Source: an uncultured Erythrobacter sp. (lineage in GTDB: Bacteria > Pseudomonadota > Alphaproteobacteria > Sphingomonadales > Sphingomonadaceae). Taken from it: a DNA stretch of 64,000 nucleotides. Within the stretch, counting starts at the first letter, position 1. Every line of letters begins with the position of its first letter. The translations under genes were made by a program, and so were the position numbers. The DNA is taken from the NCBI GenBank assembly GCA_947495695.1, contig CANLZP010000001.1, positions 269,069 through 333,068 on the forward strand, written 5' to 3'. This document shows positions 10,036 to 29,776 of this stretch, in pieces. The notes under the pieces were generated by a model. The model worked only from the letters and a program-made list of their open reading frames with translations, did not search any database and had not been told where the DNA came from.

Positions 10036-10752
10036 GTGCTGATCAGCAGCCATGTGCATTCCATAAAATTTTCAGCAGCTATGCCTTTGGTGCTGCTGGT
10101 GGCTGCTTGTGCGTCCACTCCCGAGCCATTGATTGGGCCTGTTACAGCAACAGCCAATGCCGATCTGGGACAGGCCGATTATCATTCCGCAACAGCCGAA
10201 GCCTATGCATTGAATGCAGGCGACCGGTTGAGCGTTCTGGTGTTCAGAGAGCCAGATTTGTCGGCCGAAGCGATCGCCATCGGGCCGGAAGGCACCATCG
10301 CATTGCCCTTGATTGGCAATGTTCAGGCAGCCAGCCTGACCACCGACCAGCTAGCACAGGAAATAAGAGGCCGTTTGGATAGTGCAGGATTGCGCCAGCC
10401 CGATGTCAGCGTGAATGTGGTCGAGTTTGCCTCGCATTTAGTGACCGTCGAAGGCGGTGTCGAAGAACCGGGTGTCTATCAATTCACTCCGGGCGCCAAA
10501 TTGTCCTCAGCCATTGCCTTGGCAAAGGGCCCAAACCGGGTGGCAAAACTGCGCGACGTCGTCGTCTTTAGAGAGGTCAACGAGCAAGTCTCCATCGCGA
10601 AGTTTGATTATCAAGCCGTCCGGCGCGGCACGATGATTGACCCCGTCATGCAACCTGGCGACCGCGTAGTAGTGGGCATTTCTGGTCTATCGCAGCTATG
10701 GCAGGACACTATCCGTGCCTTGCCCGCCTTTGGCTTGTTTACGCAGATTTAG
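10036..10752 (+). CDS. Polysaccharide export protein, Wza-like (outer-membrane lipoprotein)
   Basis: Lipobox-like VLLVAACAS, YALNAGDRLSVLVFREPDLSAEAIAIGPEGTIALPLIGNVQAASLTTDQLAQEI, SLBB-like ...VTVEGGVEEPGVYQFTPGAKLSSAIALAKG. Confidence 0.9.
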   Translation: MLISSHVHSIKFSAAMPLVLLVAACASTPEPLIGPVTATANADLGQADYHSATAEAYALNAGDRLSVLVFREPDLSAEAIAIGPEGTIALPLIGNVQAASLTTDQLAQEIRGRLDSAGLRQPDVSVNVVEFASHLVTVEGGVEEPGVYQFTPGAKLSSAIALAKGPNRVAKLRDVVVFREVNEQVSIAKFDYQAVRRGTMIDPVMQPGDRVVVGISGLSQLWQDTIRALPAFGLFTQI

Positions 10753-10761
10753 GGGCGGGAA

Positions 10762-12993
10762 ATGAACACACCTTCAACCACCAGCCCTTCGTCGGGGGAT
10801 CAACGCGAATGGGATGACCAATCCGACTGGGTGACCATGTCAGATGAACACGGCACCAGATCGGGTGGAGGCGGTTTGTCTACTCTATTTGACCTGCCCA
10901 CCATGCGCGGATTTTTGTTCCGGCAACGCTACATTCTGATCGCTACAATTATTCTGTCATTGCTGGCCGCGCTCATTCTTACCCTGCTCGCTACGCCAGT
11001 TTACGAAGCGCGCTCGTCCGTCAGGGTTGAACCGCAAGGCAATTATATTGTCGAAGGCCAAGATCTGGCACCGGCAATCACATCGGGCCAAGTCTCGCAA
11101 TATCTGCAGACCTTGGGAGAGGTGATCGAAAGCCGGAAGATGGCTGAATTGGTCGTCGGAACACTCAACCTGCAGAACCGCAGCGATTTTCTTGGCGACG
11201 ATGTAGATAGTAATCGCCCCGAGAAAATCAGTGATGAACAATGGGCTGAGCTGAAGAAGGAAATGGCGATTGCGATTACGCAGGGCGGCGTCGCAGCAGA
11301 AATTCCCTATGACAGCCGAATTCTGAAGATCCGCTTTTCCAGCAGCAATCCAGCCATCGCAGCCCAACTTGCCAATGCTTATGCAGAAAATTTCGCGGCT
11401 GACGACAGCCGTCAAACCTTGGCCAACAATGCGTATGCTCTGGAATATCTCGACGGCCAGATTACCGAAACGCGGCAGCGCCTTCAGGATGCCGAGCTGG
11501 CCGCAAACGCCTATGCCCGGCGCAACAGTATTGTCGGGCCTACGTCGATCAATGCCGACAACAGTTATGGCGGCGAAGGTGGCCAGACAATCACCGCGCT
11601 GAATCTGGCACAGATCAACGCCAGCTATACCGAGGCCCGCGCCAAGAGGATCGAGCTTGAGCAAAAATGGCTGGCGATTGCCGGCACGCCCGCGCGCCAA
11701 ATATCAGCTGTGCAAAACAGCGAAGTGCTAAGGGATTTGATTGGCGAGAGTTCTACGCTGTCCGCCAATCTTGCGGATCTGAGGCAGCGGTACGACGATA
11801 ATTATCCGCAGGTTCAGGAGCTGAACGCGAGACTGGCGGAATTGAACCGGCAAATCGACCAGACGGGAGCCGACATCAAGGCTGGTATCCGCAGCGATTT
11901 TGAAGTTGCCAAGCGTCAGGAACAAGCATTGTCAGCCGAAGTTGGCCGTGTTTCGCGCAACACTTTAGACGAGCAGGACCGGCGCGTGCGTTATGGCCTT
12001 CTTGATCGTGAGGCCAGCGCCATCCGAGTCCAGTTGGCGACCTTGCTTGATCGCTACAACCAGATTTCCTCTGCTGAAAATGTACAGACCGGGTCAATCA
12101 CTTTGCTCGACCCTGCTTTGAAGCCCACCACTCCCGTGTCCCCCAATCTTACCCGAAATTTGTTCATTGCATTGATCTTGGGCTCCGGATTGGCACTGAC
12201 CATCGCAATCTTGCGCGAAGTATTCGATGATCGTCTTCGGTCACTGGCAGAAGTGGAAGATCGCTTTGGCGTGCCCCTGTTGGGCCACACCCCATATCTG
12301 GTGGCTGATGATCTGGATGATGAGGGGTCCGCCGCGCATATCGCCTTGATGGAATCCTATTCCTCCATTGCGTTGGCGATCCATTATGCCTTGCCCAAAC
12401 GGCATCGAGTATTGCAATTCACTAGCAGCCAGGCGTCTGAAGGCAAAACCACCTCGGCCATCGCATTGGCAGAGAAATACGCCAAACTGGGTCATAAAAC
12501 CTTGTTGGTGGATGCCGATTTGCGGCGTCCTGCCATGGCAGGGGCCTATGGATTGGACAAACCGCAGCAAGGTTTCGCCGAAGTTCTGAAGGGTCAGGCA
12601 GACATTCAATCGGTGCTGCTTCCCGAGGTGCATGAAAACCTGGATGTCCTACCGCTAGGAACCTTACCGGCGGATCCTGTCGAGCTGATGGCTTCGGGCT
12701 ATATCCGCACCTTCATTGCCCAATATCGCGAGCAATATGACTATGTGATCTTCGATTCATCACCAGTGGTTGGCATTGCAGACGCGCCGATCCTGTCACG
12801 TCTGGTGGATTCGACAATATTCATCGTTGAGGCCAACCGGGTTCACTTTGGACAAGCCAAGGCTGCTTTGCGCAGGCTGAAGGCAGCAGGCGCAAATGTT
12901 CCCGGACTGATCTTGACCAAATATCGCCCGCAAGAAGCCGGGCAGTCCTATGGCTATGAATATCAATATTATTCCTATTCCAAGGATGCTTGA
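10762..12993 (+). CDS. Polysaccharide co-polymerase/tyrosine autokinase, Wzc/GumC-like
   Basis: 743 aa; Wzz domain, long coiled coil, Walker motifs (SSQASEGKTTSAIALAEKYAKLGHKTLLVDADLRRP), Tyr-rich C-terminus YGYEYQYYSYSKDA. Confidence 0.92.
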   Translation: MNTPSTTSPSSGDQREWDDQSDWVTMSDEHGTRSGGGGLSTLFDLPTMRGFLFRQRYILIATIILSLLAALILTLLATPVYEARSSVRVEPQGNYIVEGQDLAPAITSGQVSQYLQTLGEVIESRKMAELVVGTLNLQNRSDFLGDDVDSNRPEKISDEQWAELKKEMAIAITQGGVAAEIPYDSRILKIRFSSSNPAIAAQLANAYAENFAADDSRQTLANNAYALEYLDGQITETRQRLQDAELAANAYARRNSIVGPTSINADNSYGGEGGQTITALNLAQINASYTEARAKRIELEQKWLAIAGTPARQISAVQNSEVLRDLIGESSTLSANLADLRQRYDDNYPQVQELNARLAELNRQIDQTGADIKAGIRSDFEVAKRQEQALSAEVGRVSRNTLDEQDRRVRYGLLDREASAIRVQLATLLDRYNQISSAENVQTGSITLLDPALKPTTPVSPNLTRNLFIALILGSGLALTIAILREVFDDRLRSLAEVEDRFGVPLLGHTPYLVADDLDDEGSAAHIALMESYSSIALAIHYALPKRHRVLQFTSSQASEGKTTSAIALAEKYAKLGHKTLLVDADLRRPAMAGAYGLDKPQQGFAEVLKGQADIQSVLLPEVHENLDVLPLGTLPADPVELMASGYIRTFIAQYREQYDYVIFDSSPVVGIADAPILSRLVDSTIFIVEANRVHFGQAKAALRRLKAAGANVPGLILTKYRPQEAGQSYGYEYQYYSYSKDA

Positions 12994-13907
12994 TGGCAAG
13001 CGGGCCATCAAGCCAGTCTGAAGGGCCAAGCTTGACCGGAGATGGGGCGAGCTTTTCAGTAATTATTCCTGCCCATAATGAAGAGGCCGTGATCGAACGG
13101 TGTCTGCGGTCAATCTACTCTGGTGCAATTACAGACAACAATCCCGAAGTGATCGTGGCCGCAAATGGGTGCACCGATCAGACTGTTGCTAAAGCTCGCG
13201 CAGCGGCGCCGAATGCTCTGATTCTTGATATTCAGCAGCCATCAAAAGCCGGGGCAATCAATCAGGCCAGCAGCGTTGCCAGCCACTTTCCGCGGTTGAT
13301 CATGGATGCCGATATCGAAGCTTCGTTCGACACATTGGCAGCAACCGCAGACGTTCTGCGGCAGGGTCGCGCGCTTGCAGCATCACCGCTCATGAAACTC
13401 AATCTGGCACAATCCAGCCGCGCCGTCCGGTCCTATTACAAGGTCTGGCTGACCCTGCCCTATGCTGCCAACGGATTGATTGGTGGAGGCGTCTATGGCC
13501 TGTCACAAGAAGGTTGGGGGCGCGTTGCCCCCTTGCCCGACATCATCGGCGATGATCTTTATGTGCGGACCCGCTTTGCACAATCTGAACGGGCCAATGT
13601 CTCCCACACTTCAGACGGTCATGCCATTGGCGTTATCATGACACCGCCAACAACCTTGAGTGAACTCATCAAGATAGAGGCAAGGCGCAGGATGGGTAAG
13701 CACGAGGTCGACCGCCACTATCCCACACTGCAAAGCGGCAACATTAACAGATGGCGTGATCTTTTTGGAAGCCTTTCCAAAGGGGCAAACCTGCTCGACC
13801 TCGCGATCTATATAGCCGTCAAGCTGGCAGCCTATGCGCGCTTCAAATTCAACCTGATCAGAGGCAAGCGCGAATGGGCGCGCGATGCATCTTCGCGGAT
13901 AGCATGA
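12993..13907 (+). CDS. Glycosyltransferase family 2 protein
   Basis: SVIIPAHNEEAVIERCLRSIY, IVAANGCTDQTVAKAR, LIMDADIEASFDTLAAT; ATG overlaps upstream TGA. Confidence 0.85.
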   Translation: MASGPSSQSEGPSLTGDGASFSVIIPAHNEEAVIERCLRSIYSGAITDNNPEVIVAANGCTDQTVAKARAAAPNALILDIQQPSKAGAINQASSVASHFPRLIMDADIEASFDTLAATADVLRQGRALAASPLMKLNLAQSSRAVRSYYKVWLTLPYAANGLIGGGVYGLSQEGWGRVAPLPDIIGDDLYVRTRFAQSERANVSHTSDGHAIGVIMTPPTTLSELIKIEARRRMGKHEVDRHYPTLQSGNINRWRDLFGSLSKGANLLDLAIYIAVKLAAYARFKFNLIRGKREWARDASSRIA

Positions 13908-15235
13908 TGGCCAGCAGAGCAATCAACCTTGGCGGCGGGCAGACAGGGAGCACGCGCGGTCTCGGCCGACTCGGCATCCCTGCCCATGTGTGGCCTGCGA
14001 TCATCATCACCTATGCGGCAGTTCTGCCGCAAGAACTGGCCATCAGCCTGGGCGGCGCCATGCTGTTTCCGTACCGTTTGGTGTTATTGGTCAGCATTCC
14101 CTGGCTGCTGCACAGCTTCTTTTCAGGCGGTCTGCGCGCCCATGGCATCGACGCATTGGCGGGACTCGTAACCGTATGGATGACCATCGCCATGCTAATC
14201 AACGAGCCGGCATTGCGTGCATTGGAATTTGGGACAGCCCATTCGATAGACTTTGGCATCGCCTATTTCGCTGGCCGAGTGTCCTTGCGCAATACACGCG
14301 ATTTCAAGGTCTACTTTGCAGCGCTGATGCCTTTATTGGCGGGTTTGGCCTTTGTGATGATGGTCGAATCTCTAACCCACAGGCATTGGGTGCGCCCCTT
14401 CATCGCGCAATTCTTGGGGGAACCTCCCCCTTCGCTTCACCAACAAGTGCGTTTGGGGCTCTACCGCGCTGCCGGGCCATTCCCGCACCCAATTCTGGGC
14501 GGGGTCTTCATGGCATCTCTGCTGCCGCTTGCCATGTTCGCGACTGACCGAAAGGCATGGATGACGATAGGCCTTGTGGCTGCTTGCAGCATGATTTTCA
14601 CGGTTAGCAGCACGGCGATATTGTGCTTCTTGTTCGCCCTAATTTTGATTGTCATCCTATGGTTTCAAAAGGCCTCGCGCGGTCCGGTCTTACTCCTTTC
14701 AGCGATTGGTGCGCTGACCCTATTCAGCTTTGTCACCGTCGCCTCGGACAGCGGGCCACTGACATTTGCGATCTATCGGCTAACGCTTGATCCCGCGTCG
14801 GGTTATTGGCGATTGCTCATTTGGGAATATGCTGGTGCCGAAGCACTCAACAATCCATTGTTCGGCATTGGATTGCGTGATTGGTTCCGGCCGTCCTTTA
14901 TGGTGACATCCTCCATCGACGCGCATTTTCTCCTATGGTCAATGCGATTCGGATTTGTCGCTGGCGTGGGTTGCGTCTTGGTATTTGCTGGATCCGCATT
15001 GCATTTGTTGTGGAACATGCAGCTACAAAATGAAGCGGCCCGAAAGGTTTCGATGGGCTTGGCGATTTGTCTGCTGGCGCTCGTCTTTAGTGGCTTTACA
15101 GTGGCATTTTGGGGCGGATTGGCCGCTTGGTCTTATATGCTGTGCGGCGCTGCGATTACGATCGGCACTCCAAAATTTGGTTTTGAGCCTGCGGCGGTAG
15201 CCACCGATCCAAAGAACGACCGGGTCGAGCGCTGA
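13907..15235 (+). CDS. O-antigen ligase/polymerase-like multi-TM protein (start approximate)
   Basis: ~440 aa, many TM segments, ...SGYWRLLIWEYAGAEALNNPLFGIGLRDWFRP... with conserved late-loop arrangement of Wzy/O-antigen ligases. Confidence 0.72.
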   Translation: MASRAINLGGGQTGSTRGLGRLGIPAHVWPAIIITYAAVLPQELAISLGGAMLFPYRLVLLVSIPWLLHSFFSGGLRAHGIDALAGLVTVWMTIAMLINEPALRALEFGTAHSIDFGIAYFAGRVSLRNTRDFKVYFAALMPLLAGLAFVMMVESLTHRHWVRPFIAQFLGEPPPSLHQQVRLGLYRAAGPFPHPILGGVFMASLLPLAMFATDRKAWMTIGLVAACSMIFTVSSTAILCFLFALILIVILWFQKASRGPVLLLSAIGALTLFSFVTVASDSGPLTFAIYRLTLDPASGYWRLLIWEYAGAEALNNPLFGIGLRDWFRPSFMVTSSIDAHFLLWSMRFGFVAGVGCVLVFAGSALHLLWNMQLQNEAARKVSMGLAICLLALVFSGFTVAFWGGLAAWSYMLCGAAITIGTPKFGFEPAAVATDPKNDRVER

Positions 15236-16116
15236 TGTCCAGCTTTGCCTTGGTAACAAAGACATATCTCGGCGACATCAAGCCCTTTACCGATCTTTGC
15301 AAAAGCATCGACCGGCTGATGCCCGACACTCAGCATTATGTCCTGATCGATCACGCAGATGCAGCAGCCTTTGCGCCATTCGAAGGGCCAAAGCGAACCA
15401 TCATCGATTGTTCGCAGTTGCTTCCTCAATTGCGCGAGACACACCTGCTGCGCCGCCGGTTTTGGCGGATCGGCTTCACACGGATGGTACGAGGCTGGAT
15501 CTATCAGCAGATCGCCAAGATCGCCTTTGTCGCTACTATGGAGGAGGATGCAGCGGTCCATCTGGACAGCGATGTTGCCTTGCTTCAGCCGATCAAGACC
15601 GAGCATGTTTTTCCAGATGGTGCTGTCAGACTTTACCATCAGCCTGGCAGCGGCAAAGGGCCACACCATTTGAAATGGCATAAGGTGGCGCAAAGAGTGC
15701 TTGGCCTGCCGCAAACCGGTTATAGCGGATCTGACTATATCGGCCCATTGGTGTCGTGGTCTCCAGTTGTGATCAGCGCCATAATTGACCGGATTGAAGC
15801 CACCAACCGAGCCGACTGGATAAAGGTGCTGGCGAGGCACTTTCGCTTCTCAGAGTATATTATCTACGGTATTTTCTGCGATCATATCGCTGGCAGGCAT
15901 CAGCAACTCATCACTCCATCAAGCGATCAATCTTGTCACAATTGCTGGGGCTACGATTTGTTTTCGTCCAGCGAGGTCGATCGCTTCGTCAGTGACTTGC
16001 ACGAGGATCATCTAGCCGTTCTGATCCAATCCAACCTGCATTTGCCAGAGCAAGAACGACGATCGATCTTGAACCGAATGAAGGAAAGATTCCGGACTCT
16101 GGATGCTGGCTCATGA
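15235..16116 (+). CDS. DUF6492-like putative glycosyltransferase
   Basis: FALVTKTYLGDIKPFTDLCKSIDRLMPDTQHYVLIDHADAAAF..., HLDSDVALLQPI DXD-like motif; start overlaps upstream stop. Confidence 0.6.
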   Translation: MSSFALVTKTYLGDIKPFTDLCKSIDRLMPDTQHYVLIDHADAAAFAPFEGPKRTIIDCSQLLPQLRETHLLRRRFWRIGFTRMVRGWIYQQIAKIAFVATMEEDAAVHLDSDVALLQPIKTEHVFPDGAVRLYHQPGSGKGPHHLKWHKVAQRVLGLPQTGYSGSDYIGPLVSWSPVVISAIIDRIEATNRADWIKVLARHFRFSEYIIYGIFCDHIAGRHQQLITPSSDQSCHNCWGYDLFSSSEVDRFVSDLHEDHLAVLIQSNLHLPEQERRSILNRMKERFRTLDAGS

Positions 16117-17060
16117 CCCTGGCACCCCAGGCTGACACAGCGCACTCTGCCGCTCTGAGCATCTTGATCGTTGGCTACAATTCTGCTGGTTTTCTGGAAA
16201 GCTGCATTGGGTCGATCAAGCCCTTACTGGATCAGCCAGAATTCGAGGTTCTTTTCATCAATAATGGCGATGACGGATCGGAGGAGTTGCTCGCCAATGC
16301 CTTTCCGCAAGTCCGCATCGTGCCAAGCCAAGGCAACATCGGGTTTGGTCGGGCGAACAATTGCCTCGCCAAGCATGCGAACGGCCAGCATTTATTGCTG
16401 CTCAATCCCGATACGGAGGCATCGCCGGGCGCGATCAGAGCTCTGCTGCTCGCCGCCGCCGATCATCCAGACCATCCGATATTGGGCGCTGTCACAAGTA
16501 CCGAACGCGATGGATCGCAGACTCTGCCGCAAATGGAGTTGCCCGGCATCCGAACGCTGGCCCGAGGTTTGATCGGTCGAGCGGCAAGGCCACTATCCGT
16601 GACGCAATCTGGCGGCCTCATCCCGGCGAACTGCGTCAGCGGAGGCTGCATGATGGTCCGCCGCGAAGTCTGGGAACGCTTGGGGGGTTTTGACGAAGAC
16701 TTCTTTCTCTATGGAGAGGATATCGATCTGTGCAAGCGAGCGAGCGCCATGGGATACAAGTTGGCGCTCGTGCCCAATGCGCGGATCTATCACGATGTCG
16801 GCAGCGGGAGTTACTTCGCGCCCAACCGTTTGCTTTTGCAGATGCGGGGCAACGCGCATTACTTTCGCAAGCATAGCAATCCCGCGCATGCGGCCGCTTG
16901 CATCGCTGTGCTGTGGGTCTCTGCTTGGGTGCGCTTTGCCGCGGGCGGTTTGATGGGTCTGCGCAGCGAAAAATACCGCCAGATGTCAGCGGGATTTGCC
17001 TCGATAGCTCTGCGACCGTGGACATGGTGGAATGGTTATCGCAAGCTCAGCAATCACTAA
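16113..17060 (+). CDS. Glycosyltransferase family 2 protein (rhamnosyltransferase-like)
   Basis: LSILIVGYNSAGFLESCIGSIKP, FINNGDDGSEELL, IGFGRANNCLAKHANGQHLLLLNPDTE, GGFDEDFFLYGEDIDLCKRASAMGYKLALVPNARIYHDVGSG. Confidence 0.9.
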   Translation: MTLAPQADTAHSAALSILIVGYNSAGFLESCIGSIKPLLDQPEFEVLFINNGDDGSEELLANAFPQVRIVPSQGNIGFGRANNCLAKHANGQHLLLLNPDTEASPGAIRALLLAAADHPDHPILGAVTSTERDGSQTLPQMELPGIRTLARGLIGRAARPLSVTQSGGLIPANCVSGGCMMVRREVWERLGGFDEDFFLYGEDIDLCKRASAMGYKLALVPNARIYHDVGSGSYFAPNRLLLQMRGNAHYFRKHSNPAHAAACIAVLWVSAWVRFAAGGLMGLRSEKYRQMSAGFASIALRPWTWWNGYRKLSNH

Positions 17061-17182: not shown

Positions 17183-17452
17183 ATGCCCATCGATAACTTC
17201 AGCACAACATCAGACAGTCCGATCGCACCTGCTCAGGATTGCTTCCCAATCGCACCTGACGACATCGCGGAATTGTCCAAGATCACCAAGGCAATCTATG
17301 TTGGTTCAGGCGGAGATGTGGTTGTCCGGGCTTTGCGTGCAGACACCGATGTGGTGTTTCGCAATGTCCCCGATGGCTACATTCTCGACATCCGGGCCAG
17401 CGCTGTCCGCGCCAATGGAACGACCGCCACAGACCTGATCGGCCTTGCCTGA
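17183..17452 (+). CDS. Spike base protein-like (RCAP_Rcc01079/GhsA-like, GTA/phage head-spike family)
   Basis: 89 aa: ...CFPIAPDDIAELSKITKAIYVGSGGDVVVRALRADTDVVFRNVPDGYILDIRASAVRANGTTATDLIGLA, the recognisable 'P.D...L...T+A+YVG.GGD+.V......V.F..VP.G..L.+R...V.A.GTTAT.+..L' pattern. Confidence 0.75.
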   Translation: MPIDNFSTTSDSPIAPAQDCFPIAPDDIAELSKITKAIYVGSGGDVVVRALRADTDVVFRNVPDGYILDIRASAVRANGTTATDLIGLA

Positions 17453-19524
17453 TGCCTGGCTTTGGCTACGGCACCCTGCCGCATCACCACCGGTTAGCGG
17501 CATCGCATAGAGGGTCTGACACGACTGGCTTTGCGATGATCCAACCTTCTGCCCAATGGGACGGAACCGCAGCATCGGGTTTTGGCTCCACGCCGGTAAA
17601 TCGGACCCGCGTGACGGCTCAGCCAGCGATGCAATTGATGGTTCCGCCTAATCAGCATTTTACCGACAAATTGGTGATTGGTGTGTTTGCCGGAGCCAAT
17701 GCTCAAGGTTCACTTTACAACGCCATGGGCCTGTCTCGGGTGGATGTGCATTGTGAAGGCAATGTTCATTCGATTGTCGAGCCCAGCCTCTATCAATTCA
17801 TCGATGTGAACGGCACCGCCCGGTCCTATCTTGGTTGGTGGGTTGAACTGGAGCACAACGGGACCAATGGCGAGGCCTTGATCTATTTCGAGGCCGTGCC
17901 GCAGGATCCCGCCATGCAAAGCCGGGTGCTTGGCCCGGTCAGTTTCTTCCCGCAGCGATATGATGATGGACAAGGCGGCTGGACACCGCACGATCTGTTT
18001 CTTGAAGTTGCTCCATCGCAGCCAAAGATCACCAACCAACGCTATCAAAGCCTGAAGGATGCAGGAAACATCTGCCGAAACCTGGCAGCACAGAACCCTT
18101 TGATCACGGTCACAGAGCCGGGCAATTACACTCTTGATCCCGTCAATGGCAGCTACCAAGGCAATGGCTATGCTACGATCGAGGCCAGTGTTGCTATAAC
18201 AATCGACAAGCCAGCCTATGTTCCTGGCGCATCAACCTCCTTGCGTTGGCGCTATGACGGGATGTGGCTGCGCGGAGGCAACATAACGGTCGACTTTGCC
18301 GAGATTGGGAACATCTATCACGAGAACGCAGCCAATCGGCAGCACGTTTTTGAAGGCGTCAATTTCACCGATAGCAAGGGTCGAGGTGCGTTGTGGCTGA
18401 AAGGTCAAAAGCCAACCCCGTATATCGCCCGCGACAACCCCTATTTCCTCGAATGCGATGTGGAGATTGTGCAAAATCCGTGTCTCAACGCCTCGCTCGT
18501 GCGGGGCTGCAGCTTTGAAAATCTTGCCTATGATGTGATGTCCTATGCCCGCTGCATGGTGGGCAATGTTGTCACCGGTTCGCACAATATTGACTGGCGC
18601 ACACCTGTGCCAGCGATGACCGTGCAATATGTAGGCAGCGCCGCCACGGCGACGATCGAACTGGCCGGATCAAGCGATGCAAACAACCGTCAAATCACTG
18701 TTAAAGTGGACGGCCAGCCTGACCAAAGTTTTGATCTGCGCAATCAAGTGGCCGATTATCAGGCCGACACCAACTATTCGGTCTCAGACGTTGTGGCATG
18801 GATCAACTCGCTGACAGAATGGAGCGCCACGCTGCTCGATGACACGCGCCGGGCAACGGCATTGTCGCATGATAGCGCGTCCAGCTTGGGCAGTGGGTTT
18901 GCGGCAATTGACGCAAACACGGCGCCAGTATCGCTCCATACAGTGTTCGATATTCATGGCGATATCTGGGCGCTGAACCTGCAATCATCGCGCAACAGCA
19001 TCATGTTCGGCAACACATTCTACGGCAATGCCCTGCCAGTGATTACATTGGGTTACAGCTCGATTGAGGACTTGTTGGTGGTGAACAACGCCGCTGATTC
19101 CGACGAGGTGCTCAATCCCAATTTCCTCGATCAGTTCAGCCAATGGTCGAAACCCAGCAGCCATGTGGTGGTGGCCCACAACAGCCTGTCCAATCAGATC
19201 CAGCTTGTTCGGCCCTCGCAGGGCTTCACCGCCGATAGCTATTGCATGCTGGCCAATAATGCGATGCGCGGGATCGAGTGGACTGGCACTCCCGATGCTG
19301 GGTTTTCGATTACCGACAACCATCTGTTTGGTGCAGCGGTCAATCCGGTGGGCGCGAAGCGAACGACCATTTCTGGTACCAAGCAAGACATCTTTGTCGA
19401 TGCGTCTCAGGGCAATTTCTCACCCATCGGCGCTCTTCAAAGCAGTCCAAAAGCCTCTATCGCTCGGTTTGATAAGGGCGGCAACATTCGGGGCGCCAGC
19501 GCACCGGCGGGCGCAGTTCGATAG
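17452..19524 (+). CDS. Putative spike/fibre protein with beta-helix-like central region (GhsB-like by position; distant)
   Basis: 690 aa, no signal peptide, start overlaps spike-base stop; central repeats of short beta/turn segments (GNITVDFAEIGNIYHENAANRQHVFEGVNFTDSKGRGALWLKG..., RGCSFENLAYDVMSYARCMVGNVVTGSHN, QSSRNSIMFGNTFYGNALPVITLG). Confidence 0.55.
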   Translation: MPGFGYGTLPHHHRLAASHRGSDTTGFAMIQPSAQWDGTAASGFGSTPVNRTRVTAQPAMQLMVPPNQHFTDKLVIGVFAGANAQGSLYNAMGLSRVDVHCEGNVHSIVEPSLYQFIDVNGTARSYLGWWVELEHNGTNGEALIYFEAVPQDPAMQSRVLGPVSFFPQRYDDGQGGWTPHDLFLEVAPSQPKITNQRYQSLKDAGNICRNLAAQNPLITVTEPGNYTLDPVNGSYQGNGYATIEASVAITIDKPAYVPGASTSLRWRYDGMWLRGGNITVDFAEIGNIYHENAANRQHVFEGVNFTDSKGRGALWLKGQKPTPYIARDNPYFLECDVEIVQNPCLNASLVRGCSFENLAYDVMSYARCMVGNVVTGSHNIDWRTPVPAMTVQYVGSAATATIELAGSSDANNRQITVKVDGQPDQSFDLRNQVADYQADTNYSVSDVVAWINSLTEWSATLLDDTRRATALSHDSASSLGSGFAAIDANTAPVSLHTVFDIHGDIWALNLQSSRNSIMFGNTFYGNALPVITLGYSSIEDLLVVNNAADSDEVLNPNFLDQFSQWSKPSSHVVVAHNSLSNQIQLVRPSQGFTADSYCMLANNAMRGIEWTGTPDAGFSITDNHLFGAAVNPVGAKRTTISGTKQDIFVDASQGNFSPIGALQSSPKASIARFDKGGNIRGASAPAGAVR

Positions 19525-19658: not shown

Positions 19659-20591
19659 ATGATCCAGGACAATAGATCGGTCGAGGTTTCGATCGCCGCG
19701 CATTATGTGCCGCAGCGGGTTCAATTTCTGGCGCGAGCGCTGGACGCGATCAATCAATGGCAGCAAAGCGATGTCACAATCTCTATTGTAACGAATGACC
19801 TCGCCTTGGCTGAAGACCCTGGTCTAGCTGACATTTTGGGCGCGCTGCGCCATAACGATCGAACAGTAATTTTCGACAAGGCGCACGGACTGGAGCACCC
19901 ATGGCATCTGACCTGGTGGCACAAGCAGCGCTTGCGCCAATGGACCAAGCAGGCCGGTGATGGGGACCTGTTTTGCTACATCGAAGATGATATCACGGTT
20001 CCGCCAGCAGCCCTCGACTACTTTGTGCAATATCTGGACGCCGCTAAGCAATTAGGCGTGATCCCCGGATTCCTGCGGTATGAAATAGATGCCAATGATC
20101 GCACAATCTCGACCGATTTTCGCGCCCACCAGATCGTCGAAGACAGCCAGATCATCAACCTGTCCGGCACCTCATTTGTCGCATCCGAATATCCCTATTG
20201 GGCCGGATTTGTGTTGGATAAGGCTCTGGCTGAGGAATATTTGCGCTCGCCATGGGCCGATATCGATAGCGCGGATGCACAGCCCCAATCATCGGGGCAC
20301 ACGTGCCGGGTGCAATCGGCCTGGGCTCTGACTTACCACTCTGTCCCGCCCAGCATGCCGTCTCGAATTGTGGTACCGGTTGATGCCAGCTTGCAGCCCT
20401 TGGAAGCATGCCGTGTTTGGCACACACCCAACAATTACTCCGCCACTCGGCTGCACGGGTTTGGCACAATTGCTCTGGACCGGGTTTTCATGCGCCCGGG
20501 CCTCTCTGCAAACTACGCCAATCTACGACGAACCGCTGCTCAGCTTGGTCAGAGGCTAATGCAAAAATTGGCTAAGGTTTTCTCGTCATGA
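19659..20591 (+). CDS. Hypothetical glycosyltransferase-like protein
   Basis: 310 aa; ...LFCYIEDDITVPPAALDYFVQYL... DXD-like acidic motif; located in the EPS locus. Confidence 0.55.
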   Translation: MIQDNRSVEVSIAAHYVPQRVQFLARALDAINQWQQSDVTISIVTNDLALAEDPGLADILGALRHNDRTVIFDKAHGLEHPWHLTWWHKQRLRQWTKQAGDGDLFCYIEDDITVPPAALDYFVQYLDAAKQLGVIPGFLRYEIDANDRTISTDFRAHQIVEDSQIINLSGTSFVASEYPYWAGFVLDKALAEEYLRSPWADIDSADAQPQSSGHTCRVQSAWALTYHSVPPSMPSRIVVPVDASLQPLEACRVWHTPNNYSATRLHGFGTIALDRVFMRPGLSANYANLRRTAAQLGQRLMQKLAKVFSS

Positions 20592-21246: not shown

Positions 21247-22680
21247 TCAGCCGCGCAGCTTGCGCACAATCACGGCGATTTCTTCAGACAAGACATGCCG
21301 CACCAGCCCGATTAGCACCAGCCATGCCGTCGCTGCGGCCAATCCGCACAGCAGCAACTGCTGCCAAACAGCCAGACCAGATGGCAATATGTTGAGGCTC
21401 AACATCGCCACTCCTGCACAGGTCAAACCGACCAAACCGCTTTTCCAAACAGAGCCGCTCATCTCGGCAAAGCTCAACCCGACCGACCGCCGCAAGAGAT
21501 GTAGGTGCACGATCTGAGAAATAGCGATGACGGCCACCAAGCCCCACGCAACCGCCGAAGTGCTGATGAATACTGTGCCGACAAGCACTGCTATCCTGAA
21601 AATGGCCAGAACCGCATCACGCTTCATCAAGATGGCTGTTTCGCCCAAGGCTGCGTGAACCTGTTGGCTTAATGCAGAGGCGGCATAGATAATCGCTCCG
21701 ACCGCCAAAATTTGCCCGAGCCCAACAGCCTCGCCCCATTGATCGCCAAACAATGTCAGCACCACCTGCTCGGCAAGCACGATAAACACCGCCAGCACCG
21801 GCCATGAAATGCCAGTTAGCAGGCTGACGGCCCGCAGATAGGCCGATTTGATCGCCAACCTATCCCCTTCTGCTCGGGCAAAATGGCTCAGCGCAATGGG
21901 TAGGGTCGCCTGCTCGATACCTGAGCGAAAAACGCGCACCACACGATTGCCGCGGTTGTAAAAGGCGGTCATCGCCAAGCCTTGCACGGCACCAATCAGC
22001 AATGGTTCCAAGGCGGCAGCAGCTCGCGTTGAAAGCTGCGCTCCGGTCATCTGAAGGCAGAACGTCCAGACCTTCTTCGCCCCCTTGGCTCCGGGTAAAC
22101 CGATACGATACTTCCGGTCCACCAGTGCCAGGCACAGCAATTCACTTGCGGCCTCGGCAACCACCCCCCAGGCCAAGGCCTCAGCCCCCCAGCCCTGCCC
22201 AATCAACGCCAAGGTAACCGCCGTGCGTACCAATGCTCCAGTGATCTTGATGCCAGCAATTGCGCCATAGCGAAGGTCACGGGCAAGGACCGCCTCGGCT
22301 GGTTGGGAAAACGGCCGGGTTGCGTAAATCAGGCACATGATCAGCAAGCAATTGCCCGGAGACGGGGAGGAATAGCTGGCCGACAAAATCCAGCTGCCAG
22401 CCAAGCACAATATTAGCGCCACCGCTGCCGTTGATAGAGCGATCAAGCGCACCGCTCGCATCGTGCCATGGTCGAGCTTGTCGGTAACGATGATAAAGGA
22501 TTTGAGCTCGAATTCGCGCAACGGCTCGATCAGCATAATCACCGCATAGGCGATCAGAAATGCGCCGATCTCTGCCGGGTTCAGGAGGCGCGACACGACC
22601 ACGACCAGCGCCAGTGATATGAACAAATTGGCGAAAGTCGCAAAGTTGGACAAGAATAAGGATTTGCGGATCGATGCCAT
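21247..22680 (-). CDS. Oligosaccharide flippase (Wzx-like, polysaccharide transporter superfamily)
   Basis: 477 aa, ~12 TM; ...RLLNPAEIGAFLIAYAVIMLIEPLREFELKSFIIV..., LARDLRYGAIAGIKITGALV. Confidence 0.88.
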   Translation of the reverse strand: MASIRKSLFLSNFATFANLFISLALVVVVSRLLNPAEIGAFLIAYAVIMLIEPLREFELKSFIIVTDKLDHGTMRAVRLIALSTAAVALILCLAGSWILSASYSSPSPGNCLLIMCLIYATRPFSQPAEAVLARDLRYGAIAGIKITGALVRTAVTLALIGQGWGAEALAWGVVAEAASELLCLALVDRKYRIGLPGAKGAKKVWTFCLQMTGAQLSTRAAAALEPLLIGAVQGLAMTAFYNRGNRVVRVFRSGIEQATLPIALSHFARAEGDRLAIKSAYLRAVSLLTGISWPVLAVFIVLAEQVVLTLFGDQWGEAVGLGQILAVGAIIYAASALSQQVHAALGETAILMKRDAVLAIFRIAVLVGTVFISTSAVAWGLVAVIAISQIVHLHLLRRSVGLSFAEMSGSVWKSGLVGLTCAGVAMLSLNILPSGLAVWQQLLLCGLAAATAWLVLIGLVRHVLSEEIAVIVRKLRG

Positions 22681-22684
22681 CAGA

Positions 22685-23917
22685 TCAGCCAGCCTTCAGC
22701 CATTGCGACAATTCTTCACGCGCACGGCTTTGACCCGCTAGTTTCGGGGCCTTCTTCGCGGAGAAATAGCGCAGCCCCTTCTCCAACAACCACGCTGGAT
22801 ACCCCAACCAACGCAATGGGCTGTCCGACGGCTGTCCCGACAATCGCGACAATTGATTGGCGCTGGGGAGCAGCACTTTCATGAATGCATCGGCCGCACG
22901 GGCATCGCCATCACCACGTTCGGACAATCGTCGAAGCATAGCAATCTGCTCGGTCTCTTCGCGCGGCTCCAGCATCGCAGCGCATGCATGCTCGAGCATA
23001 GAAGGCGCAATATCCGCGTTCCCCAGCCAATCTTTCGGCACCCAGTGGGCGCCCAAACTGTCCGCCAGATGTGCCAGAAACACCCAGGACCGCCCCAACC
23101 CCAAGCCTTCAGCATCGCGGCGCAATCGCTCCATATCCGAACTGCTTTGATCGAAAAGATAATGCAAATCGGACAATATCAGCGGCCCATTGGCGAACAT
23201 ATGATGCAGCGTTGCATGCTCTATCAGGTGGAGTGCATTGTCGTGGCGAGATGGCACGAGAACCTGCCGGCCCAACAGCTCGAGCACTTCAGCATTGGCA
23301 AAGAGCCTCTCGACCAGTTGCGGCTCTTGTTTCCACCCGCGTGCATTGATGCGGTGATGCAATTCGATCACCAACCCGCTTTCGATGTTTTCGATCTCAG
23401 GCAATTGGTGGCCATATTCCAGACCATAGCTTGCCACACCCACGCGCTGCTTGAACCCGGGATCTTTCAGAAGCACGCAATTGACCGCCACAGCATCATC
23501 GGGCCGCAGCAGCAGATCAAGATCGCGCAGCGGCCGCAAGGCGGGGTCGGGATAATAGCGAAAAGCGAGCGACAGCCCCTTTAATGCAATCGGGGCAAAG
23601 CCATCTTGCTGCAATTGCTCGATTACTTGCGCGCTTACTTGCCCTTGCGCCAAAGCGGTCAAAGCGTCGAGCTGTGCCTGCTCCCCAATGGTGTTGATGG
23701 CGTTGCTATCAGCGTCATCCAGACCAGTGCACCGATCAATCGATCGGGCGACAAGCCCGGATGTGCGGGTCTGCCCAGACAGCAGCGCCAGTTCGTCCCA
23801 CCCCTGTTGGTCGAGTGCGGAAAGATGTGCCTCATGGTCATTCTCAGGCGCAGCGCAAATGGCCAGCAAGGCTCTGCCGGCATTGGTTAGGCTTTGCTGC
23901 GTACTCGCCACGGTCAT
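22685..23917 (-). CDS. Nucleotidyltransferase family protein (NTP_transf_5-like)
   Basis: 410 aa; GFAPIALKGLSLAFRYYPDPALRPLRDLDLLLRPDDA; ELHHRINARGWKQEPQLVERLF...; adjacent to the lasso-like operon. Confidence 0.8.
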   Translation of the reverse strand: MTVASTQQSLTNAGRALLAICAAPENDHEAHLSALDQQGWDELALLSGQTRTSGLVARSIDRCTGLDDADSNAINTIGEQAQLDALTALAQGQVSAQVIEQLQQDGFAPIALKGLSLAFRYYPDPALRPLRDLDLLLRPDDAVAVNCVLLKDPGFKQRVGVASYGLEYGHQLPEIENIESGLVIELHHRINARGWKQEPQLVERLFANAEVLELLGRQVLVPSRHDNALHLIEHATLHHMFANGPLILSDLHYLFDQSSSDMERLRRDAEGLGLGRSWVFLAHLADSLGAHWVPKDWLGNADIAPSMLEHACAAMLEPREETEQIAMLRRLSERGDGDARAADAFMKVLLPSANQLSRLSGQPSDSPLRWLGYPAWLLEKGLRYFSAKKAPKLAGQSRAREELSQWLKAG

Positions 23918-25614
23918 GGCAAATCCAAGTCCAGCACGCTATCGGCAATGTCGATCATATCTTGGTCATGACTGAGAAGCACGATGGTACGATCACCTTT
24001 CAGGTTGGCAACCGACTGCCGGACAAAGGCCTTGTTCGGCGCGTCCAATCCGGCGCTTACTTCGTCCAGGATCAGCAAATCAGGTTGTCTGATCAAAGCC
24101 CGCGCAAATGCGATCCGCTGCAATTCTCCGCCCGAAAACAACCGTCCGCCCTCGCCCATCCGGGTGCTCAGCCCATCGGGCATATCGAGCACAAATGTGG
24201 CTGAAGCCAACTTTAGCGCAGCGATCATTGCGGCATCATCGGCGTCTTCCATCCCCCAGCGCAAATTGTCCGCAATGCTGCCGTCGAAGAAATAGGCGGC
24301 CTGTTCGACATAGGCGATCTGGCTGCGCCATCGCATCCTTTGTGCGTCGGTCATCACGGCACCATCCACCATGACCTTGCCCCGATCAGGCTTTAATAAT
24401 CCGCTGAGCAGATCAGCGAAAGTGCTCTTGCCCGCGCCTGAAGCGCCGCGAATTGCCACAAGTGAGCCAGCCGCCAGGGTGCCATTGAACCCTGCCAATA
24501 TGTCGCGCGCTCCCTCACCATAGGCAAAGTGGATATCGCGCAGCTCAATCGCGTCTTTGAAGGCGATGCTGGTAGGGCTGACCTCTTGCGGTTCTCGATT
24601 GGCCCGCGCCTGTGCGATCAATTCGAGCAATTGTTCAAGCGCCGGCAAATTATAGCGCCAGCTGTGCAAAGCCTGTTGGATCCTGATCAACATGGAGGAT
24701 GATCGGGCGGCGATGGCCAACAAAGGAACAAAGATCACAATCGAAATTCCGGCCACAATGATGCCGAGATAGATCGCCAGCGCCAATGCGACGGCCACGG
24801 CGATCTGAAAGGTGGCTTGGGCACGATAGCTGTCGCGAAAATAGACACGCTCATGCTGTTCAAGCAGGTCCGAGGCCTGCCTGAAGTCATCCGCCAATCG
24901 ATCAGCTGCACTGGCAATCCGGGCTGCCCGCAAATGATCGAGACCATTGGAAACCAGACCCTGTAAATCGGCATAGACCGATGAATAATCCTGCGCGCGG
25001 GCCGCGGTTTTCCGGCGAAGCACCAGCAAAGGAAAGCCAAGGATAATCCCGGCGGCAATGATGATCAGCGTCAGTTGCGGCGCGATCAAAGCAGCGGCGG
25101 CTATCATGGCCAACAGTGTGACCACGGAAGTTGCCAGGCTCAACGCATGATCAACCAGATTGCCCGCTCGCACGGTCTCTCCCATGATCAATGCGGCGTG
25201 ATCCGCGCTGTTTTGCTTGCTCAGCCAGCGCCAGTCCGCCTCGAGCAAAGCAGTATGCGATTGCGCCCTCAACCGATTGGTCAAAGACAGGCCGAGCCTG
25301 CGCCTGCGTTCGTTGGTGATATAGACGATGACAGCGCGCAGGCAGACCAGCATCACCGCGATCACCAGCAACGCGACGGCAGAGAGAGATTGCGCGAAGG
25401 GCAGCCAATCCAGCGGAACGGTGTCGGGCAATTGACCGGCCAGCGCCTGTGTAATCGGTACCAGCAGCAGCAGCCCGAACCCTTCGGATAAACTGGTCAG
25501 TAGAAGCAAGAGGCCCAGTGCAAATATCTGCCCAGCACCTGCTTGTTGGACGAGAAACCTCAACCCTCCAAAGTTGGGGCCTGCTTCATTGGGATGAGCA
25601 CTATCCTGCTGCAT
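23914..25614 (-). CDS. ABC transporter, fused TM/ATP-binding (RiPP exporter-like)
   Basis: Walker A GASGAGKSTFADLLSGL, signature FSGGELQRIAFARALIRQPDLLILDEVSAGLD; six-TM N-terminal domain. Start (MQQDSAHP, 25614) overlaps the cyclase stop. Confidence 0.88.
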   Translation of the reverse strand: MQQDSAHPNEAGPNFGGLRFLVQQAGAGQIFALGLLLLLTSLSEGFGLLLLVPITQALAGQLPDTVPLDWLPFAQSLSAVALLVIAVMLVCLRAVIVYITNERRRRLGLSLTNRLRAQSHTALLEADWRWLSKQNSADHAALIMGETVRAGNLVDHALSLATSVVTLLAMIAAAALIAPQLTLIIIAAGIILGFPLLVLRRKTAARAQDYSSVYADLQGLVSNGLDHLRAARIASAADRLADDFRQASDLLEQHERVYFRDSYRAQATFQIAVAVALALAIYLGIIVAGISIVIFVPLLAIAARSSSMLIRIQQALHSWRYNLPALEQLLELIAQARANREPQEVSPTSIAFKDAIELRDIHFAYGEGARDILAGFNGTLAAGSLVAIRGASGAGKSTFADLLSGLLKPDRGKVMVDGAVMTDAQRMRWRSQIAYVEQAAYFFDGSIADNLRWGMEDADDAAMIAALKLASATFVLDMPDGLSTRMGEGGRLFSGGELQRIAFARALIRQPDLLILDEVSAGLDAPNKAFVRQSVANLKGDRTIVLLSHDQDMIDIADSVLDLDLP

Positions 25615-27559
25615 TGCGCCCTTGGACATAGCGGATGAAGCGCGCCGTCGACACTGCCCGGCCAATTGCTGCGTTGATTTTCAGCTTATTGTCCCCCGCG
25701 CTGTCTTCCTCGCCCGACCAATCGGCCAAATTTTGGCTCAAACGCTCGGTATCGAACACGCGAGAGAGAGTTGGGTCGGCCTGGATAGACTGCAATTCAG
25801 CCTGCAACATCGTCCTGTCGCGTTGAAAACGCATGGCCCAATCGGGCGATTGCCTGCCGAAACGGCGTTCGGTCCGCACATTTTCGGGAATCCGCCCATT
25901 TAGTAGGCGGCGGGCCAGCCAACGATCAGTCCCGTTGCGCAGGTATTGGTCGTCACCAATGCCTATGCACAGCTCCAGCAAGGGGCGATACAGCGTGGGA
26001 TCGCGCGACGGAATCCCGTGGTGCAATTGCATCGCCAGATCGATCTCTGCCCCTTGTGACAGAGTGTCCGCCAGCACGGCTGCCCGCCAATCACGTGCCG
26101 AATATGCGGTATAGAAATCACGATCAAACCCGGCCGCTTTAGCCCGGTCAAACGCTCCGTTGCGGTTGGCAAATTCGTGCCGCATCGGGCACCATGTTTC
26201 AAAGGCCGAAGCGAACTTTCCGCGAAATTGATCGATGGTTTTTCTCAAGGCAGCGGGCAGATTGGGCATCACCGCAAGAGACACCGCCTTGCGCCAGAAT
26301 GGGCGCGGATCGTCCGCCATGGACAGCTCGCGAGCCAGCAAGCCCCAGCGTCCCTTGCGCAGCCACTCGCCATAGCCTGTCATGCCATCATAGCTGAATC
26401 CGCTATTCCCCGCTGCGCCGAACAATATGGCGCCCGAACCGGCCTTCGCTGCCCGAGAATACATCTCGTGGATCCAATGCATGTTGCTCTCGTTGCGCAT
26501 TGGCCATGATCCCAGCATATGCATCGCATCCAGATCAGCGCCGAATATCCGGCTTTCTCCTGAGGCAAAGCGTGGCTCAATTTGCGGATACATTGCTGCC
26601 AACGCGCGAACATGATCGCTTTCGTCGCCAAAGGAATAGGGCTTGTCGGGCGAAACCCATCCACTCTGAGGCACCGCCGTATAGCTGGTGACCACCTCTC
26701 CATCGCCCAAATGGTCGCATAGATAGGCAGCCACAGCTTGCGAATCCAAGCCGCCCGACAGCGCAATCGCGGGTTTCGTGATGCCGTCCATGGCATTGCG
26801 CGTAGCCTTGGCAAACAGGTCGTCCACAGCGTCGACATAGTCTTGGTCACGAGCCAATCGAACCTCTGGCACTGAGGCTGGCGACCAATGGGTGACGCAT
26901 TTGACCCCATTCCGATCATGCCTTTGCCAAGTCCCGCAGGCGACCCGGCTGGCATCGCAGTACCAGCTGCTGGTGCCATCTTGAAAGTTGAGCAGCAGAG
27001 CATCGCTCATTGTCTGTGAGTCCACTTCGGCACGCATGCCTGCTGCGAACAAGGCGCGCGGGATGGAGGAGACCACCAAGCGCCTACCTGCCCGCCATAT
27101 ATGCAAGGGGTGCATGCTGGTGGCAGAGCGCGACAACCAGACAGTCCGCCGATCAGGAAACCAGCGCACAGCCGCGTAATCGCCATTGATTCTACTGTCG
27201 CAATCGTCGTCAAAGCGTGCGTGGGCCAAGCCATAGAGTGCCGCATCGTCCATCGAGGGGTTTACCCCCAATGCAGCGCACAATTGCGCACGATCTTCCA
27301 GCCGACCAGCAAACAGAGTGTAGCCGCCATCATCGCCCGGTGTTGGCTCAAATAATGCCGGGCGCGGCGGCCCGCGAGTATCAGAGGGCGACATCAATTC
27401 GCGGCGAGCGGCCAAGAAACCACCGTCGACCTTGCCAAATCGAACCGGGCCCGCCGTCCCCAATCCGAGCGAGGCTACCATCCGGTCGACCGTTGGTTCA
27501 TCAATCGGCGCATCGCCGGTCAGGTCCAGACAGGCGGCAATGAGCAGATCGGCGGCCAT
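25601..27559 (-). CDS. Asparagine synthetase-like protein (lasso cyclase/LasC-like)
   Basis: 652 aa; PP-loop KPAIALSGGLDSQAVAAYLCDHLGDGEV; N-terminal Ntn-like domain lacking the catalytic Cys2. Confidence 0.85.
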   Translation of the reverse strand: MAADLLIAACLDLTGDAPIDEPTVDRMVASLGLGTAGPVRFGKVDGGFLAARRELMSPSDTRGPPRPALFEPTPGDDGGYTLFAGRLEDRAQLCAALGVNPSMDDAALYGLAHARFDDDCDSRINGDYAAVRWFPDRRTVWLSRSATSMHPLHIWRAGRRLVVSSIPRALFAAGMRAEVDSQTMSDALLLNFQDGTSSWYCDASRVACGTWQRHDRNGVKCVTHWSPASVPEVRLARDQDYVDAVDDLFAKATRNAMDGITKPAIALSGGLDSQAVAAYLCDHLGDGEVVTSYTAVPQSGWVSPDKPYSFGDESDHVRALAAMYPQIEPRFASGESRIFGADLDAMHMLGSWPMRNESNMHWIHEMYSRAAKAGSGAILFGAAGNSGFSYDGMTGYGEWLRKGRWGLLARELSMADDPRPFWRKAVSLAVMPNLPAALRKTIDQFRGKFASAFETWCPMRHEFANRNGAFDRAKAAGFDRDFYTAYSARDWRAAVLADTLSQGAEIDLAMQLHHGIPSRDPTLYRPLLELCIGIGDDQYLRNGTDRWLARRLLNGRIPENVRTERRFGRQSPDWAMRFQRDRTMLQAELQSIQADPTLSRVFDTERLSQNLADWSGEEDSAGDNKLKINAAIGRAVSTARFIRYVQGRNAAG

Positions 27560-27560
27560 T

Positions 27561-28049
27561 CTATTCGCCGCCTTTTGGTATGTGCTGGAAGCTTAGCACG
27601 ATGCGATATTGCGACCGGTCACAATGCCCGATCAGCATCTGATTGCCCCACTCAACCCAAGCGTGGAAGGCATGCTCCGCCGCGTCATTGCCGCTCTCAG
27701 CCCCGCGCAGCATGGCAATGACCAACCGCGAACCCGCGTCCATTTCGCGCAACAGCCACTGCAATGCCATGGCTTGCGACAGGCATTTAGGTTCGGTGGG
27801 AAAACGAGCCGCAGCGCGTTCTACCCGGCGCGCCAATCCGGCCGCCGCACGCAATCGTTCATCTGTTATGGGTTGGTTATGCTCGGCTGGATTGTCTTCG
27901 ACCAGTTGCCCCAGCGAGCCGCGCCAACTCGACATCGCAGAGCGCCGGATCAGCCATTGCGCTCTCAGTATCAGGAACATGGCTTTCAAAGTGCCGGCTC
28001 GGAGCGACCAGATCGAAACTGATGGGTTCTGGTCTTTCGAAGCCATCAC
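27561..28049 (-). CDS. Lasso peptide biosynthesis B2 protein (transglutaminase-like leader peptidase)
   Basis: 162 aa; PTEPKCLSQAMALQWLLREMDAGSRLVIAMLRG...AFHAWVEWGNQMLIG: Cys/His catalytic arrangement of B2 proteins. Confidence 0.82.
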   Translation of the reverse strand: MMASKDQNPSVSIWSLRAGTLKAMFLILRAQWLIRRSAMSSWRGSLGQLVEDNPAEHNQPITDERLRAAAGLARRVERAAARFPTEPKCLSQAMALQWLLREMDAGSRLVIAMLRGAESGNDAAEHAFHAWVEWGNQMLIGHCDRSQYRIVLSFQHIPKGGE

Positions 28050-28115
28050 GGTGCTGGATTCATCGGAATGGGATGGCTGGCTGCCAGGAATAGGTCCGGT
28101 GCTGCCCGGCGGCGT

Positions 28116-28391
28116 TCAAGCGAAGTCGGCAAAGCCCGCGTCAACCAATTGGTTGGCAAATGAGGAGACCGAAGTTTCGCAGACCTCGCGAGATACATGA
28201 TAGACCCCCAGCAGATGGTTGCAGATCTGGTCCAGTTCTGCCTCATCCTCGAACGATTTCCATATCTCCAGGCCGATGTCCTTGAGCGCAAAAAAGCTGC
28301 CAGTATCGCCATGCACCAAAATCAGCTCGCCATCGACTTCGCTGGCCAGAAAATTGTCTGGCAATTTCCGTAATCTTTGCAAGTCAGCCAT
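28116..28391 (-). CDS. PqqD family protein (RRE/B1-like)
   Basis: 91 aa; ASEVDGELILVHGDTGSFFALKDIGLEIWKSFEDEAELDQICNHLLGVYHVSREVCETSVSSFANQLVDAGF. Confidence 0.85.
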   Translation of the reverse strand: MADLQRLRKLPDNFLASEVDGELILVHGDTGSFFALKDIGLEIWKSFEDEAELDQICNHLLGVYHVSREVCETSVSSFANQLVDAGFADFA

Positions 28392-28420
28392 GGTTTACTT
28401 TCAAATCCGGGCGATAGAAA

Positions 28421-28558
28421 TTAGCTTACTGCGCCGTTCCCCTTGGCATCCGTATTGCCACTTCGCTTCTGCCGAATAGCTTCCAGATCAATCGTCAATC
28501 GATGAAGCACGGGCGCAACCCACGCCTTTCGATTATCGCCGCCATTCATACTATTCAT
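28421..28558 (-). CDS. Putative RiPP (lasso-like) precursor peptide, 45 aa
   Basis: MNSMNGGDNRKAWVAPVLHRLTIDLEAIRQKRSGNTDAKGNGAVS; GGAG 8 nt upstream of ATG at 28558; sits between the HprK-like and PqqD genes; KAWVAPVLHRL resembles the (Y/W)xxPxL leader motif. A longer form from ATG 28669 is also possible. Confidence 0.6.
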   Translation of the reverse strand: MNSMNGGDNRKAWVAPVLHRLTIDLEAIRQKRSGNTDAKGNGAVS

Positions 28559-28670
28559 CGGAATTGCTCCAGCATCAAATTTGCCCGAGGACACCTTCTG
28601 AACCTCTGTATGAATTGACAGTGAAGATGGCAAGAATGGGTGCGCTGAAATCCGATGGTTTTTCGCCATG

Positions 28671-29582: not shown

Positions 29583-29776
29583 GGAACAATCGTTCCTAGA
29601 CGCTCCCCGCGTATGAGCAAACACATCTGCGCTGGTTCTTTCCATTCGGCCAGTCTGCGTTGCAACGGTGGCAGCGCAAGTGAAGATCTGTTAATGAGTG
29701 TTGCGATATATCGGTTTGAACGATAGGATTAACAATCGGTATCAGGCCCATCGCATTGATGAAAAGAGAGCGATCT

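Follow-up and report, generated by a model that had tools for sequence, protein, structure and literature searches.

A gene transfer agent-type head-spike gene pair within an exopolysaccharide locus of an Erythrobacter-type bacterium

In Rhodobacter capsulatus, the head-spike genes of the gene transfer agent RcGTA, rcc01079 and rcc01080 (GhsA/GhsB), lie away from the gene transfer agent (GTA) structural cluster, beside the capsule genes rcc01081-01086 with which they are co-regulated (PMC10218006; PMC7296036). Only residues 2-10 of the RcGTA fibre (IALGLGLGL) are resolved, forming a star in the base pentamer, and the body of Rcc01080 is unresolved (PMC7296036). According to a 2026 preprint, receptor-binding proteins are among the products of ectopic GTA loci, which may evolve faster (PMC13420450). 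The core idea that GTA spike genes sit beside capsule genes is already published for R. capsulatus, and this part of the original prediction, which proposed a spike gene next to the genes of the capsule it recognizes, is less new than it implied. The linkage itself proved to be conserved both within the genus and outside it. The new elements are that the placement in an exopolysaccharide (EPS) locus is conserved among sphingomonads, that the pair has two alternative homes and that it is co-inherited with the locus. The literature that we searched contained no description of the sphingomonad arrangement or of the two homes, although some placements may have been mentioned earlier.

The window analyzed here is a 64,000-nt stretch of DNA from an Erythrobacter-type bacterium (C1:269-333 kb), and gene positions are numbered within it. 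The first gene of the pair (17183..17452, + strand) encodes an 89-aa protein that is, by its sequence, a member of the head-spike base family (GhsA/Rcc01079). In an NCBIfam profile search it matches NF048002, spike_base (RCAP_Rcc01079), at 102.7 bits (cut-off 28, E 1e-29); it also matches PHROG 12296, “tail fiber protein” (E 1e-16), and its sole match in the PDB is 6tb9_E3, “Head spike base Rcc01079” of RcGTA (E 4e-5, residues 6-84). The spike-base pattern that had been noticed in the bare letters is thus borne out, and a lack of profile similarity, which would have spoken against it, does not apply at a score so far above the cut-off. The gene is present in one copy in the source genome. Glu12 of the RcGTA base, which takes part in cation coordination with the capsid, aligns with Ile14, with Asp11 nearby, small shifts of the alignment being possible.

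The second gene (17452..19524, +) encodes a 690-aa protein that we describe as a head-spike fibre, resembling GhsB by its position and its N-terminus, on the basis of an AlphaFold (AF2) model, Foldseek comparisons and its overlap with the base gene. The two reading frames had been described as overlapping and the longer product as beta-rich, and both points hold: the stop codon of the base and the start codon of the fibre have one base in common (TGATG), and the model is rich in beta structure. Of the 31 genus loci, 28 show this one-base overlap; among 312 background neighbours, 70 overlap by 1 or 4 bases. In the model (mean pLDDT 89, pTM 0.89) a disordered N-terminus (residues 1-25, pLDDT <50) is followed by a beta-sandwich and a right-handed beta-helix. 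We counted this disordered stretch before a confident fold in favour of a GTA spike, as RcGTA resolves only fibre residues 2-10. The N-terminal 25 residues (17452..17526, +; MPGFGYGTL...) are our candidate for a plug peptide for the base pentamer, with a linker, given their low pLDDT and their motif: the MPGFGYG start has the same alternating hydrophobic-Gly pattern as RcGTA fibre residues 2-10, and other fibres begin with MAGFGFG, MGRLGYGFG and similar sequences. Defined as hydrophobic-G-hydrophobic within the first 13 residues, the motif occurs in 37/47 EPS-located fibres (79%) versus 174/2740 other genes of those loci (6.4%), and in 30/34 GTA-located fibres from IMG/VR. Among the genus-set fibres 17/29 carry it, the remainder having a degenerate or different N-terminus.

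The pair therefore resembles GhsA/GhsB: the bases belong to one family, the fibre gene comes next and encodes an alternating hydrophobic-Gly N-terminus and a flexible linker, and both pairs lie away from the GTA structural cluster and near surface-polysaccharide genes. The fibre differs from GhsB in its length (690 against 325 aa), in its beta-helix and in its sequence, which shows no recognizable similarity; a PDB sequence search gave no match to Rcc01080, which we counted against its being a GTA spike. A profile check of both proteins, as originally proposed, placed the base in the spike-base family, whereas no Pfam, NCBIfam or PHROG family was assigned to the fibre, which also had no match among phage genomes. 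Attempts to place the fibre, or an alignment of its 24-member family, in Pfam, PHROGs, NCBIfam or the PDB gave weak or single-member matches, bar a weak match to a sheath domain. The latter concerns an insert of ~90 residues (roughly 372-460; 18565..18831, +) that is contractile tail-sheath-like: positions 372-452 weakly match the profile of phage tail sheath 5li2 (E 0.038), and Foldseek reports a local match of the model to phi812 sheath-containing tail entries with probability 1.00, the matched residues not being printed.

By Foldseek, the fold class of the fibre is that of GH28 exopolygalacturonase, lacto-N-biosidase and the HK620 tailspike, all beta-helix proteins, with a weak resemblance to AlgG and RbmB. 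It differs from the beta-helix matches in that whole-protein TM-scores are only 0.2-0.35, in the sheath-like insert and in its proposed carrier, a head base and not a tail. Across the family, residues D361, H502, D504, D540, H571, N577 and Q582 are invariant. These D/H/N/Q residues lie in the predicted beta-helix, a fold by which the fibre may be a polysaccharide depolymerase. Both base and fibre are under purifying selection (omega about 0.07-0.10 for the closest pair, with dS near saturation). Two longer fibres, of 1028 aa (L034) and 1021 aa (L042) in genomes G024 and G049, begin with the Tat-signal-like sequences TRRSFMFGATA and SRRAFLVGAAS; such starts suggest export and not capsid assembly, which would be odd for a capsid part.

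The surroundings of the pair are those of an EPS locus. Upstream on the + strand are genes for a Wza-type polysaccharide export protein (10081..10752; PF02563 and SLBB), a Wzc-type chain-length determinant/tyrosine autokinase (10762..12993; TIGR01005, TIGR01007), a GT2 glycosyltransferase (12990..13907; PF00535), a Wzy-type polymerase/O-antigen ligase (Wzy_C; 13874..15235; PF04932), a DUF6492 protein that is probably glycosyltransferase-like (15235..16116; PF20102) and, directly before the base gene, another GT2 glycosyltransferase (16113..17060; PF00535). Directly downstream of the fibre gene is a weakly GT2-like protein (19659..20591, +; PF00535, E 0.013, below the cut-off), and a Wzx-type flippase is encoded on the opposite strand (21247..22680, -; PF13440). 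The upstream part of the locus also encodes a UDP-sugar dehydrogenase and a UDP-GlcNAc epimerase. The description of the pair as embedded in an EPS locus is confirmed by Wza, Wzc, Wzy_C and Wzx, and that of glycosyltransferases on both sides by the GT2 and DUF6492 proteins upstream and, at below-cut-off strength, by the GT2-like protein downstream.

The sole portal and the sole capsid gene detected in the genome map to C1:445-448 kb, outside the window; for these two genes this agrees with the earlier statement that terminase, portal, capsid and tail genes are absent from it. Both belong to a cluster (L032) about 161 kb from the spike pair, so that the absence of any GTA or prophage, which would have counted against the original prediction, does not apply. 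Its genes follow GTA order: terminase, HK97 portal, protease, HK97 capsid, connector, tail tube, TIGR02217, TIGR02218 and further tail proteins. The best PDB match of the capsid is the RcGTA capsid (6tba/6tb9, E 4e-82). Judged by its genes, L032 is an RcGTA-type gene transfer agent cluster. A single long ORF in it (14973-17423 of L032) ends in the TIGR02217 distal tail protein and has a long N-terminal extension with an uncertain choice of start, possibly part of the tape-measure region.

We consider it probable that the RcGTA-type GTA of this genome takes its head spike from the pair, which is housed in the locus of the presumed polysaccharide receptor. Five copies of the 89-aa base would sit on each capsid pentamer, and the hydrophobic-Gly N-terminal peptide of one fibre would thread into the base pentamer, with the geometry of RcGTA. 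The beta-helix body would reach outward and bind the surface polysaccharide of sister cells, which it might also cleave, and this binding would be the first step of particle attachment. We infer that the spike is assembled on GTA particles and that it binds exactly this polysaccharide. With the spike genes within the EPS locus, ligand and presumed receptor would be inherited, and lost, as one unit. GTA biology has yet to explain how a suicidal gene-donating particle is aimed at kin, and a spike gene inside the locus of the presumed receptor would offer a plain genetic solution: one locus, inherited together. Tens of species are available to test this idea, and natural controls exist in relatives that have the spike in the capsid operon, in relatives that kept the spike after losing the GTA and in a close relative that lacks EPS locus, spike and GTA.

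The spike base is present in 31 of 61 genomes of the genus, nearly always among Wza, Wzc, GT2 and Wzy genes, and the pair lies among EPS genes in ~50 sphingomonad loci. Among the named genomes scanned, members of Erythrobacter, Qipengyuania, Aurantiacibacter, Alteraurantiacibacter, Altererythrobacter, Novosphingobium, Sphingobium and some Sphingomonas have it in an EPS locus. Context labels, some of them set by hand from gene order, were EPS for 51 spike loci, GTA for 16, phage or other for 10, nth/dapB-like for 5 and near EPS for 4. The second home is the GTA cluster itself: in Sphingomonas and dozens of IMG/VR loci the pair lies between the capsid and connector genes. All 21 Erythrobacter GTA clusters checked have this slot vacant, with 113-203 bp between the two genes. 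When listed positions were compared by eye in an order-wide sample, base and capsid were adjacent in 6 genomes and far apart in about 43. The spike is single-copy in 76 of the 83 sphingomonad genomes that carry it. This distribution sets the present pair, among Wza/Wzc/Wzy genes and with a second home in the GTA clusters of relatives, apart from that of R. capsulatus. Downstream of dapB-like and nth-like genes there is a third home, in Sphingobium and relatives (L158, L160, L164, L173, L175); the L158 fibre has a SASA acetylesterase domain.

The Sphingomonas-type GTA pair (e.g. L172, L190, L200) shares with the Erythrobacter pair the base family, a coupled start of the next ORF, a GFG/GLG-type N-terminus and related capsid and tail genes. 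It differs in its place between capsid and connector and, in some cases, in a ~45-aa adaptor ORF followed by a 406-aa protein. In five Sphingomonas-type GTA clusters (L172, L188, L199, L177, L239) the ORF that overlaps the base stop has only 43-46 aa (MDGLSLSIPAVARRR...) and is followed by a separate protein, which in L172 has 406 aa. In these clusters the fibre appears to be divided, its plug adaptor being encoded on its own.

In a tree of the base, locations are clustered and, on the starred branches, the EPS label must change three times or more, which suggests repeated relocation of the pair. The R. capsulatus base groups with that of L287, where the base lies beside a sugar transferase, apart from the sphingomonads. 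Because the tree (89 columns) is weakly resolved and unrooted, it does not settle whether moves went from capsid operon to EPS locus or back. More tentatively, it is conceivable that in alphaproteobacterial GTAs the receptor-binding spike moved repeatedly between capsid operon and polysaccharide locus, with the fibre exchanged in place and a role in the EPS locus that outlives the GTA. If so, a spike in an EPS locus would be a component of that locus, with ligand and receptor genes inherited and lost together.

The original prediction also expected spike and EPS genes to co-vary, and here the evidence is divided. The more alike two fibres are, the more alike are the neighbouring Wzy proteins (r 0.28, permutation p 0.0016, relatedness left uncorrected), and the 8 locus pairs whose fibres are similar and whose rpoB distance could be used all have similar EPS genes. 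Conversely, many locus pairs with similar EPS genes carry unrelated fibres, and with control for rpoB neither a partial Mantel test (p 0.12) nor a rank test of fibre-EPS co-variation was significant. The fibre is therefore exchanged faster than the EPS genes, and strict lock-and-key co-evolution of fibre and EPS is not shown.

Within the genus, the spike is tied more tightly to the EPS locus than to the GTA. A Wza orthologue (over 50% identity to the Wza of the window) is present in 27/27 good genomes with the spike versus 1/25 good genomes without it (Fisher p 6e-14). Spike and GTA also co-occur above expectation (19/11/5/26, Fisher p 2e-4). We counted this for a GTA role, together with the place of the pair beside the capsid gene in Sphingomonas, the vacant slot in Erythrobacter and the purifying selection, but a phylogenetically paired test on the rpoB tree was no more than suggestive (median p 0.06). 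The pair persists in eleven genomes that are at least 90% complete and lack a GTA, in one of which (G048) it is a relic with a truncated base; a role in the GTA only does not explain them. We counted these genomes and the stronger tie to EPS against a GTA spike, as we did the Tat-like starts and the lack of Glu12 at the aligned position. The pair could instead serve the EPS locus, its pentameric base carrying a beta-helix glycosidase or lyase that would trim or release polysaccharide independently of GTA particles; the Wza distribution, the GTA-less carriers, the two Tat-like N-termini, the resemblance to GH28 and lacto-N-biosidase (weakly to AlgG and RbmB) and the invariant residues in the beta-helix are all consistent with this. 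However, spike-EPS co-occurrence is expected from physical linkage alone, the plug motif and the coupling to a capsid-binding base have been retained, and the Sphingomonas pair sits within the GTA cluster. Moreover, all good genomes with both EPS locus and GTA retain an intact spike, whereas the sole genome with the EPS locus and no spike (G003) and the sole relic both lack a GTA, which we counted for a GTA role. On this evidence, service to the EPS locus instead of the GTA seems unlikely. A genome very close by rpoB (G044) has neither EPS locus, spike nor GTA, and five GTA-positive genomes of the genus (G001, G010, G030, G031, G034) lack both this EPS locus and a detectable spike base.

Relatives of the pair in Rhodobacter RcapNL, Rhizobium and Flavobacterium phages and in prophage-like loci (L182, L187, L193) could point to leftover cargo of a phage or prophage with the same EPS receptor that landed in the locus and is unused by the GTA. 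We regard this as quite improbable, given that the pair is intact, under purifying selection and associated with GTA presence, and that its EPS position is constant in tens of species; a prophage remnant was dropped from consideration in view of the lack of phage genes nearby and the single-copy conservation. A chance neighbourhood without functional meaning would agree with the loose coupling of fibre type and EPS gene content after control for relatedness, but is very improbable: EPS placement recurs in many genera, a sugar transferase adjoins the base in L287, the locus that groups with Rcc01079, and the base tree needs several location changes.

Beyond the flippase gene, the window contains a lasso-peptide-like cluster (22685-29645, -) with a nucleotidyltransferase (PF14907), an ABC transporter, Transglut_core3, PqqD, a weak HPr-kinase-like protein and an asparagine-synthase-like cyclase whose match to NF033535 is below the cut-off. 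A 96-aa ORF in it (28421-28711, -) contains WVAPVL and may hold a lasso-peptide precursor. Parts of this cluster adjoin the spike again in four other loci (L122, L124, L125, L145).
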